In this document: one piece after another, positions 3,033 through 51,433 of the stretch
How the letters are laid out: the number at the start of each line of letters is the position of its first letter
How positions within the stretch are numbered: the stretch's first letter is position 1
IMG/VR virus record: IMGVR_UViG_3300024239_000013
Span: 255,335 to 319,334 of that record
Strand: one strand, 5' to 3'
Length of the DNA stretch: 64,000 nt
Origin: a virus
Notes under the pieces: model-generated
The model's input: only the letters and a program-made list of their open reading frames with translations
Databases searched by the model: none
Told to the model about the DNA's origin: nothing
Program-made: the position numbers and the translations under genes

Positions 3033-4892
3033 TTATTGTTGTCCAGGAGCTTTTTGATCAGGTAAATCTGCTCCGTAAGGATTAAGTGTCAATGTATCCT
3101 TAATAACTTCTTCACTCAATATATTACCAGCAGTATCAGCATAAGCATCATAACTTTGTAAAGAAGATGAAGTTTCTAATGAGCTTTGATATAATCTACC
3201 ATCACCTCTATTAAATATACTTTCTATTTCACCTCTTTCTCTGGATCTGGCATGTTTTAATGTAAAAGTAGCCTTTATCGTCGTAGGAAAATCGTCAGGA
3301 CCTAAAGCATCTCCGAATTCTATTTTTAAATCATCACAGATCAAATTACCTATCATTGCTATAGGATTACATGGATTTCCTATTGTTAAATGCCATTCTC
3401 CTATAGGAGTCCCTGTTAATAAACTTGAAGATGCCTGGATCTTTTCGATATAATCTGCTGTTACTACGTTCTGTAAAATTCTACGAAGTGCACCAGGAAA
3501 CTTTTTACTAAGATCTCTTATTTTATTAATATCTACTGTGGCTCCGTCTTTATTTGTTAATTGTAATATCTGTGCTCTCAATTCAGCTAGATCTGAATTT
3601 TCCGTTGATGTTGAAGCCCCTGGGGATATTTCTCCAGTTATTTGTGCTCCTTGAGCGGATTTTGTCGCTTGTCCCTGTGCATTTAATATTTTTTCGCCAT
3701 AAGTTAAAATAAAATTAAGCGGATCCTTATAGAATTGTAAAAGCCCTTCCTCTCCTCCAGGAAATCCCACTGCAGGGAATTCGCTATTGTATTTAATATC
3801 AGGACTTAAAAAATTACCATAGTTTGTTCCGATTGATAGTAAATTTCCCATTATATCCAGCATAGCAGCCTTAGTATTAACTTCACCGACTGATGTTAAA
3901 TCATATTCAAATACAACATTCAGATTTTCCCACGTAAACTTAAGTCCAGATTTTCTTACATAGGTATCTTTAATAACATCCATAGGAACCCATTGATATT
4001 TACTCAAAAGACCAAAATTTCCTTCAGTAGCTCTGTCCCTCAATCCACTGTACCTTCTACTTTCTACTGTTGTGTTATTGGGGTCTGCATAAATAGCTGC
4101 ATTTTCCCCTATAGACTGCAAAGCTAAAGAAAGGTCATCCGTACCTGTAACAACCCTAGCTGCTTCTGAGAACCATTTATAAGGTAAATCCCCATAGAAA
4201 CCCTTTGATGTTGCTTCCTGCGTAATGACATCTGCTTGGGTATCTTGATCCCATTCTAGTCCGGTTGTAAATTGGATTAAACTACTAAGTACATTACCGG
4301 TATTTCCACCAAACCAGGTAACAGCTTGTGCTACTGGTCTTCCTGCACCTTTAGTAAGGTAAGCTTCTGATGTCTTAACCGATTCGGGTACTGATAAATT
4401 ATCGAGAACTGGAGTTGGAAACCTTCTTAAGGTTATCATGTAATTATTAGGTATCGTTCCATAATACTTACAATATAAAAAATCTTTCCAGTAATAAGGA
4501 GCAGAAAGTCCCCCGATAATACTTTTTTCGAATTTAGAAACAAATCCGGATAACCTTCCTTCATTGTTACCGATTATAGATTCCAGATCAGAGGTCTCTC
4601 TTACTAGATATCCTGCTGAAGGATTTTTTGATTTTAGTGAGGATACTCTTCTATTATATTCGGCATTTTCCGATTTATAATAGGAATCCACAAAGTCATT
4701 TTCATTATTTCCTAATGAATAAAATAAGAACTGTCCATACGCATTTGGAGTTCTTTTTGCAGCTTCGTAGAAAAGACTTCTGGCTGTAGGTCCCTTAAAT
4801 GGATTATTTGATCCTAGATTGCTATATCGTTTTACAATCGTAGAAACATTTTTTCTTAAAAGAGTTTCTTGTAAACTTGGTCCTGGAATCAT
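3033..4892 (-). CDS. Baseplate/tail-tube junction protein candidate
   Basis: 619 aa, start ATG at 4892. The most informative part is the C-terminal third, with GEWHLTIGNPCNPIAMIGNL followed by LKIEFGDALGPDDFPTTIKA and KHARSRERGEIESIFNRGDG. This pattern (LTIGNP, 'LGPDDFP', 'R..IESMFN.G') occurs in phage tube-capping or tube-initiator proteins. A role like T4 gp48/gp54 is possible. The first 400 residues are not recognised. It is the first gene of the hub operon. The family call is inference; a structural tail role is fairly safe from context. Confidence 0.5.
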   Translation of the reverse strand: MIPGPSLQETLLRKNVSTIVKRYSNLGSNNPFKGPTARSLFYEAAKRTPNAYGQFLFYSLGNNENDFVDSYYKSENAEYNRRVSSLKSKNPSAGYLVRETSDLESIIGNNEGRLSGFVSKFEKSIIGGLSAPYYWKDFLYCKYYGTIPNNYMITLRRFPTPVLDNLSVPESVKTSEAYLTKGAGRPVAQAVTWFGGNTGNVLSSLIQFTTGLEWDQDTQADVITQEATSKGFYGDLPYKWFSEAARVVTGTDDLSLALQSIGENAAIYADPNNTTVESRRYSGLRDRATEGNFGLLSKYQWVPMDVIKDTYVRKSGLKFTWENLNVVFEYDLTSVGEVNTKAAMLDIMGNLLSIGTNYGNFLSPDIKYNSEFPAVGFPGGEEGLLQFYKDPLNFILTYGEKILNAQGQATKSAQGAQITGEISPGASTSTENSDLAELRAQILQLTNKDGATVDINKIRDLSKKFPGALRRILQNVVTADYIEKIQASSSLLTGTPIGEWHLTIGNPCNPIAMIGNLICDDLKIEFGDALGPDDFPTTIKATFTLKHARSRERGEIESIFNRGDGRLYQSSLETSSSLQSYDAYADTAGNILSEEVIKDTLTLNPYGADLPDQKAPGQQ

Positions 4893-46117: not shown

Positions 46118-46726
46118 TTATTGTTTCTCGTCTATTTTTTTTCTGATTTTACTGCGAGCTCTTCTGATCCTTGTAGCGATGGATCTTTTCTTTATCCCAT
46201 ATTTTTCTGCAATGTCCTTATATTTCATATTGTTTATCTCTCGGTCGATCATAATGTCTCTGTATAACTCTGGGAGATCTCTAATCTCATCCAGAACGGA
46301 TTCATAAAACTCATCAAAAGTAGATTCCTCCTTATAGAATGCATACAAAGGATCCTCTTCTAAAACATACTGTCCTCCTATCTCATTGGATTCGTTTTTT
46401 GAAGAAAGATATTCGAGTTCAGCATCAGTGTGATTGTGATATCTTTTTCTGGACTTCATTAAGAGGAGAGATTCATTTCTTGCTATATTATAACACCAAG
46501 TTGAAAAATTTCCTCTTTCATTGTTATACTGGTCTATTTTTATCCAAATTTTAGACATGGTATTAATGAAAGCATCTTCAGCAAGTTCCTGTTCTTTTAC
46601 AATCAAAAAACAATGGTTTAGTATACCAGGTCGGAGTCTCTCGAATAAAATTTTAAAATTCTTATCATTTTTCACAGTTATGAAATCCTCAGCTATCTTT
46701 TGGATATTCTTTTCTTTTTGTTGCAT
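46118..46726 (-). CDS. ECF-type sigma factor
   Basis: 202 aa. Sigma region 2 is clear at about 20-95 (LAEDAFINTMSKIWIKIDQY, RGNFSTWCYNIARNESLLLM). Region 4 is at about 145-195 (LPELYRDIMIDREINNMKYK then DIAEKYGIKKRSIATRIRRA), with a helix-turn-helix. Unlike gp55 it keeps both promoter-contacting domains, so it could direct host RNA polymerase to phage middle or late promoters without a clamp. No anti-sigma gene is seen next to it. Its target may be the TTGGATATATA element or another set; this cannot be told from sequence. Confidence 0.85.
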   Translation of the reverse strand: MQQKEKNIQKIAEDFITVKNDKNFKILFERLRPGILNHCFLIVKEQELAEDAFINTMSKIWIKIDQYNNERGNFSTWCYNIARNESLLLMKSRKRYHNHTDAELEYLSSKNESNEIGGQYVLEEDPLYAFYKEESTFDEFYESVLDEIRDLPELYRDIMIDREINNMKYKDIAEKYGIKKRSIATRIRRARSKIRKKIDEKQ

Positions 46727-47403: not shown

Positions 47404-48921
47404 TTAGATTCTTCTCGAATCCGGTCTTAATACTCTGTCACCTGAGGTAACGTTTAAAGGTCCTTCTAGTAATAAAGCTATTCTAACTAAGGTAGCTTTC
47501 ATTTCTTGTATATCTTTAGAACTTAAGCTTTCAGATTGATTATTACTTTTAGATGGATCCTTATCATCAGATTTAGAAACTGTTTTTATATCATTAACTG
47601 GTTTCTGTAAATTATTATCAGGTAAACCTGTATCTGTAGTAGAATTTTCAATAACTGATGGGGATAACTTGGACTGAGGTTTAGGGGAAAGACTAGTTAT
47701 AGACTTCTTTATCTCGGGAGCTTTTATAGCTGGAATTTTAGTAGATAGTGAAGGTATTTTATTCTCTTTAAAAGTTGGAGTTATATTTTTAGATTGTAGA
47801 GGTTCTATCTTATTTAAAAATGAATCCTGTTTATTTTTACTGAACATACTTCCTACACTCTTAGCTAAACCAACTCCAGTACCCATTAAATTATTTTTAT
47901 CTAAGCCCTTTAATAAAGATCCACCCTTTTGTATTAATTCCGAAGGATTATCTAGACCAAAATCTAAATTTTTTACTTTATTTAAAGTGTCAAAAGCACC
48001 AGATAATAGAGGGGATTCTTTTAGATTTAATTTTCCACTAAAATTTTTACCTATATTACTAACAAAACCAGAAAGAGAATCGGGACTTAATATATTTTCT
48101 ATCTTAGATGATATTGATTTATTTAAATTTCCCAATCCTTCCTTAAATATTGGATTTTTATCATCAAAATTCAAAAGTGATGACATTTCTTTTAGAGGGG
48201 ATTCTATATTCTTCAAAAGATCTGTTGGAATTAGACCCTTTATATTATCCATCACGCTATTACCAGAATTCTTGGTAAAGGTTTCAAGTATGTCATTTAT
48301 AGGATTTTCTGTGGTTTTTTTAGAGAACTCTGTTTTTATTAATTCTGGTAGTTTATCCCCCATTAACGAGTTAAATGCTTCTTCAAGATTCTTAGATTCA
48401 TTAGGTATACCCAACAAATCATTACCTTTTTTTAATAAGGTTTCCATAGAACCAGAAACGATTTCCGAAATTTTATCAGAATTTAACGGTTCGTCTGGTT
48501 TTTTAGCTATAATTTCTTTAGCTAAATTTGGAATATTTTTTATATCTGTTTTTATAACATTACTGATATCCTTTAGACCAAGATTTTCTATCCCTTTGTA
48601 AACCCCCTTGAAATCTAGAGATTTTATATCATTAGAAAGTTCTTTAAAATCTAGAGTTTTCAGGTCAGTAGAAAGACCTTTAAAATCCAGCTCACCAATA
48701 CTTTTAGTGAGCTGGTTAAATTCATTCTTTAGACTATTTAGATCTAGTCCGTTTATTTTTTCAACTACCTTTACTATTTTATCCCCACTCTCTGAACTTT
48801 TTTCGTGGGATTCTATTAAATCATCTGTAGATGCTATATTTTTTCTAATGTCGCTAGAAAGTTTATCAACGTTTCTAGACAAATCCAATAGAGAGGATAT
48901 AAGTTTTTGATCTGTGGCCAT
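47404..48921 (-). CDS. Tape-measure candidate
   Basis: 505 aa, mostly helical. It has near-repeats early on (LKTLDFKELSNDIKSLDFKG), a Gly/Ser/Asn-containing middle and a disordered Pro/Ser/Lys region at about 390-460. The C-terminus ends LVRIALLLEGPLNVTS then RPDSRRI. The position directly after tubes and a frameshifted chaperone-like gene is where the tape measure sits in most tailed phages, and length is close to T4 gp29 (590 aa). No conserved tape-measure domain is recognised, so the assignment is positional. Confidence 0.4.
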   Translation of the reverse strand: MATDQKLISSLLDLSRNVDKLSSDIRKNIASTDDLIESHEKSSESGDKIVKVVEKINGLDLNSLKNEFNQLTKSIGELDFKGLSTDLKTLDFKELSNDIKSLDFKGVYKGIENLGLKDISNVIKTDIKNIPNLAKEIIAKKPDEPLNSDKISEIVSGSMETLLKKGNDLLGIPNESKNLEEAFNSLMGDKLPELIKTEFSKKTTENPINDILETFTKNSGNSVMDNIKGLIPTDLLKNIESPLKEMSSLLNFDDKNPIFKEGLGNLNKSISSKIENILSPDSLSGFVSNIGKNFSGKLNLKESPLLSGAFDTLNKVKNLDFGLDNPSELIQKGGSLLKGLDKNNLMGTGVGLAKSVGSMFSKNKQDSFLNKIEPLQSKNITPTFKENKIPSLSTKIPAIKAPEIKKSITSLSPKPQSKLSPSVIENSTTDTGLPDNNLQKPVNDIKTVSKSDDKDPSKSNNQSESLSSKDIQEMKATLVRIALLLEGPLNVTSGDRVLRPDSRRI

Positions 48922-48937
48922 ATTGTATATATTTATT

Positions 48938-49174
48938 CTACTTTTTTAGATTAAATACTTGTTTCACACCTCCTTCATTCTGTGCTTCTGCATTTTCAGC
49001 TTCTATGGTAGCATTTAATTTATTTAGCCATATCTGATATTCGTAGAAAGGTATGGATTCTAACCATTCTGGGTCTATTCCATGTTCTCTCCACATTCTA
49101 AACTTAATATCAAAGAAGTTCTCTAAAGATATCTGAAATAACGAAAAGAGATCTAATCCCTCTGGGAAATGCAA
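48938..49174 (-). CDS. Frameshift-encoded C-terminal extension of the gp26-like gene
   Basis: The frame opens 65 bases inside the end of 49110-50195 and only offers a TTG start without ribosome-binding site. From the likely shift point (codon GAG at 49160-49162) it encodes about 74 aa (EGLDLFSLFQISLENFFDIK, RMWREHGIDPEWLESIPFYE, YQIWLNKLNATIE). This reads as a natural continuation of the upstream protein. It is probably expressed as a fusion by a +1 shift at TTT CCC A. A sequencing indel is the main alternative. Confidence 0.7.
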   Translation of the reverse strand: MHFPEGLDLFSLFQISLENFFDIKFRMWREHGIDPEWLESIPFYEYQIWLNKLNATIEAENAEAQNEGGVKQVFNLKK

Positions 49175-50195
49175 GGTAAGCGGATACCTCTTCTTGTCCG
49201 CACAATTCGCACTTTTGTTTAACGGTTAATTCAGTTCCCAATTTTATTCTTTCGGAAAGCTCAAAATATAAACTATATTCTTCTTTTGTCCAATAATCAG
49301 ATTCCCTCATTTTGAACATTATTTTTTCAGTTGTTAAATCTCTCCACTCTTCAAATAGGAAAGGTGATATTTTAAGGAATCCCTCATCTATTTCTATTCC
49401 TTTTTTAACTGAATCTGCCACAAACTTAGATATTGCTTTAGTAACTCCTATGCTAGGTATAAACATTTCTATTTTTTTACCAATTCTCTTAACATCAAAA
49501 ACAAAAGATCTAGTTTCCGGATTATAATATTCCATTATTTTTTCATCAAGTTCATATGAACTTAAAACGCCGGTTCTTAATTCTATTCCATCCTTATATG
49601 GACACTGTGGATTATTACCACATTCCTTATTTAAAGGAAGAATTATCGAATTCTCTCCTTTTACAAAAGTAAGATCCCTGATTGCCATTATAACAAAAAA
49701 TCTATCCTCCTGCTTAAGATCCATATATGAAACTACTCCTTCCCCTGGAAAATCGATTCTTAGACATCTGTCCAAGATATAGCTAAGCTTATCTTCTACG
49801 TCAAGTCTATCTTCGTCATCAATAGTCGAGAAATGTCTTATCTCTCTTACCTCAGCAGATCTTATAGCTAATTTAGATCCATCGGGATAAAAAAGACCCA
49901 TTGAAGGAAGTATTTCAACTGGAAGATTTTTCCAACCAGTATCAAAAGCTGGAGAAGCTGATTGTGCCTTACCAAAACTATTAACTAGTGGTTCCTCCGA
50001 ATTTAAACTAGATTCTAGTTTTATCGGTTCCTTTCTGATTAGATTATCAGGGATGTTAATTTGTTTTGACTGATCTATTTCTACTCCAACTACTGAACTT
50101 TGCATATTTTCGTTAGAAGTTACCGGATCATCATAAACTATTCCTCCTGACAATTCCTTATTCTTTAGAATTTCTTCTGGTGATATGTTATCCAT
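49110..50195 (-). CDS. 26: gp26-like baseplate hub/tail chaperone, zero-frame form
   Basis: 361 aa. LPVEILPSMGLFYPDGSKLA (91-110), then DKLSYILDRCLRIDFPGEGV and LKQEDRFFVIMAIRDLTFVK match the T4 gp26-type family (Pfam PF12322). Four Cys, CGNNPQC (192-198) and CELCG (329-333), could hold zinc. The last 17 residues after Pro344 look unlike the family; the +1 frame gives the better continuation. It lies between tail tube genes and the tape-measure candidate, where lambda-like phages have the frameshifting G/GT chaperone. Start ATG 50195. Confidence 0.75.
   Translation of the reverse strand: MDNISPEEILKNKELSGGIVYDDPVTSNENMQSSVVGVEIDQSKQINIPDNLIRKEPIKLESSLNSEEPLVNSFGKAQSASPAFDTGWKNLPVEILPSMGLFYPDGSKLAIRSAEVREIRHFSTIDDEDRLDVEDKLSYILDRCLRIDFPGEGVVSYMDLKQEDRFFVIMAIRDLTFVKGENSIILPLNKECGNNPQCPYKDGIELRTGVLSSYELDEKIMEYYNPETRSFVFDVKRIGKKIEMFIPSIGVTKAISKFVADSVKKGIEIDEGFLKISPFLFEEWRDLTTEKIMFKMRESDYWTKEEYSLYFELSERIKLGTELTVKQKCELCGQEEVSAYLAFPRGIRSLFVISDIFRELL
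49163..49169 (-). other. Candidate +1 programmed frameshift site
   Basis: Minus strand TTT CCC A(GA). Pro-tRNA on CCC could slip to CCA (both Pro), moving into the frame of 48938-49174. AGA in the A site follows. The fusion would be 418 aa (344 + 74). Confidence 0.6.
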
Positions 50196-50228: not shown

Positions 50229-50260
50229 AAAAAAAGAGACCAAAATTGATCTCTTTTTTT
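50229..50260 (-). terminator. Intrinsic terminator after tail tube genes
   Basis: Inverted repeat AAAAAAGAGA ... TCTCTTTTTT about 25 bases after the second tube gene stop, with a U-run on the minus strand. Confidence 0.75.
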
Positions 50261-50285: not shown

Positions 50286-50861
50286 TTACAAGAAAAGGTC
50301 TTCCCAATAATCACAAACCCAACTAGTTGTTATTGTATAGATAGTTGCTTGTTCATAGTCTAGTTCCATGGGATTTATAGCTTCACTCAAGAAACATGAG
50401 GGTATTCTTATTCTCCTAAAAACATCCCCTCTTTTATTAAAGATTGATATTGAGATAGATCCTACATAGTCTGCTTTTATCCCCATTGCACCTGTAAGAG
50501 GATTATAAATTAAATCTGACCATTGTCTAAGTATTTTATAAACGCTCATCGAATTAGCATCATTTAAGTTAACCTCAAATTCCATGGTCAATGTCATATC
50601 ACTTTGAGAAGGTTCTCCCCCTGCATATCTTCTTGTTGCAAACTTATAGTTTTGGTTAATAGTCTGTGCAGGAGCAATATCAACAGCTAACCCTGTTATA
50701 GATTTAACTTGTTGTGCTAATATTCCCTCCCCATTAAATGCCGTTGTTGCATCTAAAATACCAGCAGGAGGATTTATAATAACTTCAAACTGGTTCAAAA
50801 ATACCGGTTCATAGTTATTTATTGCTGCTTTAGAATTCGTAAAATGTGGTAATCCTGCCAT
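50286..50861 (-). CDS. 19: Tail tube protein gp19, copy 2
   Basis: 191 aa (T4 gp19 is 163). It begins MAGLPHFTNSKAAINNYEPV and has FLNQFEVIINPPAG, RRYAGGEPSQSDMTLTMEFE, DANSMSVYKILRQWSDLIYN, PLTGAMGIKADYVGSISISI and ends CDYWEDLFL. It is clearly paralogous to 50879-51433. Tube proteins stack as hexamers inside the sheath. It lies 17 bases downstream of copy 1 and before a terminator. Confidence 0.9.
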   Translation of the reverse strand: MAGLPHFTNSKAAINNYEPVFLNQFEVIINPPAGILDATTAFNGEGILAQQVKSITGLAVDIAPAQTINQNYKFATRRYAGGEPSQSDMTLTMEFEVNLNDANSMSVYKILRQWSDLIYNPLTGAMGIKADYVGSISISIFNKRGDVFRRIRIPSCFLSEAINPMELDYEQATIYTITTSWVCDYWEDLFL

Positions 50862-50878
50862 TTATTATTTTTAATTTT

Positions 50879-51433
50879 TTATAGGAATAAATCTTCCCAA
50901 TAATCAACCGCCCAAGTCATATCGTCAATTTTATATAAATCGGTAGAGGTATAATTTAAATTCATAGGAGATATTGGTTTAGTAGGAAAGCAATCCTTAC
51001 ATGTTATTCTTCTAAAAACGTCTCCTTGTTTATTAAAAATCGATATAACTATAGTTCCCGTATAGTCGCTTTTAATGCCCATTGCACCAGTCAATGGATT
51101 ATAAATCAAATCTGACCATTGTCTTAATGTTTTGAAAACATACATAGAGTTAGCATCATTAAGGTTTACAGTAAAACTTAAACTAACGTCCATAAATGTA
51201 TTTTCGGGTTTAGCTCCAGCATAATTTCTTTTAGCAAATTTATACTTTTGGCTAGTTACTCCGGGATTCTTATCTAAAGAAAGTCCGCTAACCTTAGTAA
51301 CATGTTGGAGTAATATTTCACCACCAGCTACAGCAGCAGGAGGTATTATTGTTACCTCGAACTGGTTCAGATAAACAGGTTCAAATTTGTTTATAGCTGA
51401 AAGTGAATTTTGAAAATGTGATAGTCCTGCCAT
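50879..51433 (-). CDS. 19: Tail tube protein gp19, copy 1
   Basis: 184 aa. Motifs match the next gene: MAGLSHFQNSLSAINKFEPV, YLNQFEVTIIPPAA, KRNYAGAKPENTFMDVSLSF, DANSMYVFKTLRQWSDLIYN, PLTGAMGIKSDYTGTIVISI, end VDYWEDLFL. It follows the sheath gene as in T4 (18-19). Which copy forms the main tube is not visible; the other could cap or initiate the tube. Confidence 0.9.
   Translation of the reverse strand: MAGLSHFQNSLSAINKFEPVYLNQFEVTIIPPAAVAGGEILLQHVTKVSGLSLDKNPGVTSQKYKFAKRNYAGAKPENTFMDVSLSFTVNLNDANSMYVFKTLRQWSDLIYNPLTGAMGIKSDYTGTIVISIFNKQGDVFRRITCKDCFPTKPISPMNLNYTSTDLYKIDDMTWAVDYWEDLFL

Follow-up and report, generated by a model that had tools for sequence, protein, structure and literature searches.

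A single gene in the window, a 64,000-nucleotide stretch of a 319,334-bp metagenomic virus contig, very probably gives rise to two T4-type tail or hub-assembly chaperones, the longer of which would be made by a +1 frameshift. There is no evidence at the protein level, and frameshifting in cells is inferred. That a gp26-type gene undergoes a programmed +1 shift had been proposed in a preliminary description of this locus, and comparison with relatives supports the proposal strongly, by the conserved layout, the constraint on both frames and the homology of the products. The features of the locus are the following (groups A and C are defined below).

49110..50195 (-): zero-frame ORF, gp26-type short ('G'-like) chaperone, 361 aa; phrog_36717 match, 4.9e-21
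48938..49162 (-): +1-frame extension, gp51-type C-terminal domain ('T'-like), 74 aa and stop
48938..50195 (-): predicted frameshift product, 418 aa; phrog_634 match across the junction
49110..49169 (-): dual-coded overlap, containing the zero-frame tail ..GIRSLFVISDIFRELL and stop; low synonymous variation in groups A and C
49163..49169 (-): putative shift site TTT_CCC_A; UUU_C slip in the P-site, rare CCC in the A-site

Layout of the locus and its conservation

The zero frame starts with an ATG at 50195 and its stop TGA ends at 49110, while the +1 frame is open from inside this gene to a TAG at 48938-48940. Reading CCCA as a single step yields an unbroken product of 418 aa, with 74 residues beyond Pro344. 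The TTTCCCA lies where it had been placed, at 49169-49163. The 17-residue zero-frame tail (GIRSLFVISDIFGELL, then stop) had been called untypical, which does not hold, as it is conserved among relatives and resembles the C-terminus of T4 gp26 (..GLKEFFELL, then stop). The extension had also been said to lack a good start, and no start is conserved for it among relatives: in 35 of 112 distinct ones, the stretch from the slip region to 15 codons beyond the zero-frame stop contains no ATG whatsoever, and an ATG within 5 codons of this stop is found in just 25.

A tblastn search matched 29 phage records (22-35% identity), every one of them from a huge phage or one linked to Bacteroidota (Lak, several phages of 462-735 kb, MA9V-1/2, MaF61, PTm1/PTm5 and PAU), to which a query with PAU added pT24. 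Contig scans gave about 195 loci, and in almost all of them the zero-frame stop is retained together with an open +1 frame that overlaps it. Scans led by MA9V and by Lak found no relatives, and the one led by PAU found only PAU itself. Altogether, the two-frame layout is kept in about 112 distinct relatives (IMG/VR contigs and phages), including the isolates PAU, PTm1, pT24, MA9V-1/2 and MaF61 and complete Lak genomes, and a sequencing error is thereby excluded. Single-frame relatives, which would have spoken against the shift, were looked for in four loci; three were readable at the site and all three have two frames. The relatives were sorted into group A (window-like, 17 sequences that are distinct over the site), group B (40) and group C (56). 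As a control for chance, alternative-frame extensions were counted within the window, but this was uninformative because neighbouring genes overlap.

Some relatives depart from the common layout as follows.

L051, 1465-2502 and 2507-2818: split genes, the zero-frame ORF and then a separate ATG ORF of the +1 domain
L005, 3810-4000; L007 and L003, around 3760-4200: +1-frame insertions, T-like domain displaced past the zero-frame stop

In L051 and L052 a separate gene with its own ATG, beginning four bases past the zero-frame stop, encodes the +1 domain, which is thereby identified as a real part of a protein. Insertions in the +1 frame put the domain beyond the overlap in a 735-kb phage (L005) and in Lak, and the displaced domain retains its core (VFSVFTVS, LFKIP); selection is thus on the peptide as protein, and the overlap does not account for it. 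The +1 frame of Lak-B5 contains one TAG where Lak-C1 has Glu and needs this TAG to be read as an amino acid; presumably TAG is read as Gln in Lak, which would account for it. Lak phages are alternatively coded (PMC8346664).

Constraint on both frames and the position of the inferred shift

To describe the constraint, synonymous differences were scored relative to the codon-usage expectation. This ratio is 0.81-0.86 upstream of the site; in groups A and C it falls to 0.12-0.15 with the TTT codon and to 0.07-0.09 further on, in group B to 0.54 and then to 0.13. The onset is the TTT codon itself in groups A and C and lies a few codons later in group B. Comparison among relatives thus shows that both frames are under selection from the TTT codon onwards. 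In at least seven relatives (L002, L047, L058, L066, L068, L076, L090, L103) a +1 stop stands directly 5' of TTT, which sets a lower bound on the position of the shift.

Among 141 unique sequences, 133 have TTT_C at the site itself (a count added up from the tally). The hexamer changed at least 20 times on the tree, and only 5 of the changes are between TTT_C and another sequence. The codon after TTT varies (CCC, CGT, CGC, CGA, CAA, CCA, CCT) and switches among Pro, Arg and Gln, its first base being nearly always C and the codon usually rare. CCC, generally 4-10% of Pro codons, was found here in 17 of 17 and 56 of 56 cases, and all 16 Arg codons at the site in group B are CGN, against 21% in the background. 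Because the +1 amino acid at this codon varies (P, V, A, K, L, Q), it leaves the second and third bases unexplained, and the codon as such seems to be what is selected. Exceptions to TTT_C are TTC_CCA in four sequences, TTC_ACG in L222, TAC_CCC in L011, CTG_GAA in MA9V and ACC_CAA in PTm1. These aside, the site fits the UUU_C class of +1 sites (UUU, then C, with a rare A-site codon). TTT CCC by itself is not special, since three genes of the window have it in frame, and its weight comes from its conservation. The two-frame relatives without TTT_C are L078, L083, the L086 group, L222, L008/L009, L012 and L011; several of those lacking it have AAA followed by A or G, and MA9V has GGG_A.

How the second frame is reached can be explained in several ways. 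An indel from sequencing or assembly, or a decayed gene, comes to mind for a metagenomic contig, and an indel had been named beforehand as refuting the shift; the same layout recurs in isolate genomes and in over 100 contigs, and both frames are under purifying selection, which already refutes this reading, to which we give next to no credence. It is also very improbable that the +1 part is made without any frameshift, by internal initiation or re-initiation. The separate ATG ORF in L051/L052 would allow it, as would the small CDSs annotated there in MA9V-1/2, PAU, PTm1, pT24 and MaF61; however, no start is conserved outside L051/L052, the conserved +1 peptide starts within the zero-frame gene, before the stop is reached, and the alignment with the gp51 family extends across the junction.

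If a frameshift is assumed, the question is which codon slips. A later shift in the overlap, at NTT_TTC and possibly of -2 (Phe UUC to UUU), would reach the same frame. Such a site, CTT or ATT followed by TTC, is nearly as conserved, a -2 slip there would also give ..LFSLFQIS.., and codons 1-3 after TTT in group B carry no synonymous constraint and look zero-frame only. We nevertheless hold it to be improbable, as constraint begins at TTT already in groups A and C, codon 4 of group B (ATC) is fixed in a way that only the +1 frame explains, and TTA TTC or CTG TTC in some relatives breaks the -2 re-pairing. The predicted junction peptides differ, namely FPEGLDLF for the early +1 site and FPRGIRSLFSLF for the late -2 site. 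No such distinction exists between a slip by Phe-tRNA and one by Pro-tRNA at the early site, which lead to an identical peptide. A slip by Pro-tRNA from CCC to CCN, proposed earlier as CCC to CCA, is in keeping with the invariance of CCC in groups A and C, PAU and pT24 and with the use of CCC for +1 shifts by Listeria phages (PMC5009743). It is nonetheless unlikely, while less easily set aside than the late site: in group B, L002, Lak and MaF61, CCC is often replaced by codons that re-pair poorly in +1 and cannot serve a Pro-tRNA slip (CGT, CGC, CGA, CAA, CCA, CCT), and TTT and the following C are kept. Where CCC is present, a slip by Pro-tRNA is still possible. Since this replacement affects a large clade, a slip by Phe-tRNA from UUU to UUC, with CCC as a slow A-site codon, appears more likely.

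One other candidate, a shift at the zero-frame stop CTT_TGA, was rejected: the sequence is present in most close relatives and not elsewhere, and a shift there would lose the conserved LFSLFQIS. These are the same codons as in the RF2 site.

Regarding possible stimulators, one element upstream of the site was found.

49187..49190 (-): GAGG at the place of a conserved SD-like GGAGG, 17 nt 5' of TTT; candidate stimulator

In 84 of 113 distinct sequences the distance from the end of GGAGG to TTT is exactly 17 nt, and in a further 7 it is 14 nt; by chance about 0.024 would be expected per 30 nt. In the window only GAGG is present. The nucleotides GAG GTC, 6-7 codons upstream, are nearly fixed in groups A and C, and group B often has them too. 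The spacing of 17 nt exceeds that in known SD-stimulated shifts. Bacteroidota rarely use SD for initiation; the named hosts of the relatives are mostly Bacteroidota, yet this SD-like GGAGG stands at a fixed distance inside the gene. Internal initiation from GGAGG was rejected, as several relatives have +1 stops after the element and a conserved start is lacking. No signal of a stimulatory RNA structure was seen downstream of the site, and there was no Rfam match.

Identity of the two predicted products

By comparison, the short product is of the gp26 type and the long product of the gp51 type, as shown by homology of the short form and of the extension, respectively. The short forms of L002 (29.2 bits) and PAU gp93 (33.9) pass the cut-off of PF12322 T4_baseplate (24.5 bits). 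The short form of the window alone has no match to PF12322, so its link to gp26 runs through relatives: it is 33% identical to L002, and phrog_36717 is common to the window, L002 and PAU. The C-termini also correspond, GLKEFFELL in T4 gp26 and GIKSLF..GELL in the zero-frame product. The AlphaFold model of the fused protein has a core with pLDDT of about 95 and extension helices at about 75-88; by fold it comes closest to T4-like baseplate hub proteins, proteins annotated as tail chaperones being reached only at E of about 1, and a PDB fold search gave no match.

In the case of the extension, the +1 peptide of the window matches phrog_634 ('baseplate hub assembly catalyst', the gp51 family) at 2.9e-5, as one of 20 among 27 +1 peptides that do so. 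Residues 328-407 of the fusion align with profile positions 37-115, thus across the junction, and no large gaps occur there in four fused sequences (window, L014, L053, L071). The PHROG profile is required for this, as hhalign of the +1 domain against six gp51 sequences alone was not significant. T4 gp26 and gp51 are themselves paralogs (hhalign 99.2%, 8.8e-20), and both are listed as hub-assembly chaperones; gp51 was described as essential in T4 hub assembly, with its function unknown (PMC3004832). The gene therefore seems to be a one-gene equivalent of the T4 pair: what T4 makes from two genes as a short and a long protein, one gene here probably yields by a +1 shift, with the logic of G/GT. 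The gene had been described as gp26-like and of G/GT type. The gp26 family holds, and the link is narrower than 'G/GT-like', the long form being of the gp51 type; no sequence relation to known G proteins was found.

Assuming the slip by Phe-tRNA, most ribosomes would stay in the zero frame and make the short gp26-type protein of 361 aa. A minority would slip +1 at UUU_CCC, the peptidyl-tRNA-Phe re-pairing from UUU to UUC with the rare CCC waiting in the A-site (the alternative step being the Pro slip, CCC to CCA). Reading would then go on with CCA GAG GGA... to the 418-aa gp51-type protein with its extra helical C-terminal domain, and a peptide spanning the shift is predicted as ..AYLAFPEGLDLF... 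If the pair works like lambda G/GT (PMC5009743), coating of the tape measure or hub would fall to the short form, and the long form, via its extra helices, would bring in the tube or hub. The shift in cells, the slipping tRNA, the ratio of short to long form and a G/GT-like action on tube and tape-measure proteins are inferred only.

Relation to known systems and neighbouring genes

As in T4 gp26 (PF12322, PHROG_150), the short form has C-x-x-C-G, then G-[IL]-K-x-x-F and an ELL end, and the extension of the long form resembles the C-terminus of T4 gp51 (PHROG_634). In contrast to T4, where gp26 and gp51 are two genes, there is one gene and a probable +1 shift, and the short form is longer (about 300-410 aa) than T4 gp26 (208 aa). 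The short and long products predicted from one gene, the putative shift near its end, an adjoining tail tube gene and a second, overlapping ORF that has no start of its own and persists in relatives are shared with lambda gpG/gpGT and other frameshifted chaperones; however, these usually shift -1 (-2 in Mu), whereas here a T4-type protein would be shifted +1. The tsh gene of Listeria phages PSA, A118 and A500 (CCC_UGA) is likewise a +1-shifted phage tail gene with a rare CCC (PMC5009743), but it shifts at a stop codon, which the present gene would not, and proteins and sites differ. The tail chaperone of archaeal HSTV-2 (likely +1) shares the direction, with a different protein and site. In its site the gene resembles influenza A PA-X, which shifts +1 at UUU_CGU, a UUU_C with a slow A-site codon (PMC3498833); group B even has UUU_CGU. 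Here, however, virus and ribosome are bacterial, the protein is different and the E-site codon is not conserved.

Firth et al. (2012) predicted a wider UUU_C class (PMC3498833), a class poorly documented so far, for which the present relatives are a large natural data set. No earlier description of a frameshift in gp26-type or T4-like hub genes was found, in agreement with what had been said before of a +1 shift in a gp26-type gene; this is weak evidence, as most subscription journals were not covered. Nor is a frameshifted chaperone pair for T4-type phages described in the searchable literature. On balance, we lean towards viewing T4 gp26/gp51 as the duplicated-gene equivalent of a UUU_C-shifted chaperone pair of large Bacteroidota phages and their relatives, possibly aided by GGAGG 17 nt upstream. 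If the short and long pair corresponds to gp26 and gp51, the G/GT principle reaches T4-type contractile tails and the role of gp51 becomes testable.

In the annotation of many genomes, what would be one gene making two proteins is entered as two fragments. The extension is likely misannotated as a separate small protein in MA9V1_007, MA9V2_060, PAU gp94, PTm1 gp023, pT24 gp131 and MaF61 ORF156, which also touches phrog_36717 and phrog_8286, the former covering the short form only.

The gene had been placed between a tail tube and a tape-measure gene, and its neighbours are these.

50286..50861 (-): tail tube protein, upstream; phrog_32623 1.3e-31, phrog_45 tail tube 2.8e-8
47404..48921 (-): 505-aa protein in tape-measure position, downstream; identity not established

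The tube is supported by phrog_45; the tape measure could not be confirmed, the 505-aa protein having no PHROGs match and only sub-threshold Pfam matches. Close relatives have an ORF of 480-570 aa at its place. The adjacent tail-tube-like genes 50286-50861 and 50879-51433 have similar sequences, probably from a tandem duplication. A terminator-like hairpin (50229-50253, minus strand; stem GAGATC/GGTCTC, then a T run) lies in the interval between the tube and chaperone genes, and a phage-encoded sigma-70-like factor (46118-46726, minus strand; PF08281, PF04542) lies near the tail genes.
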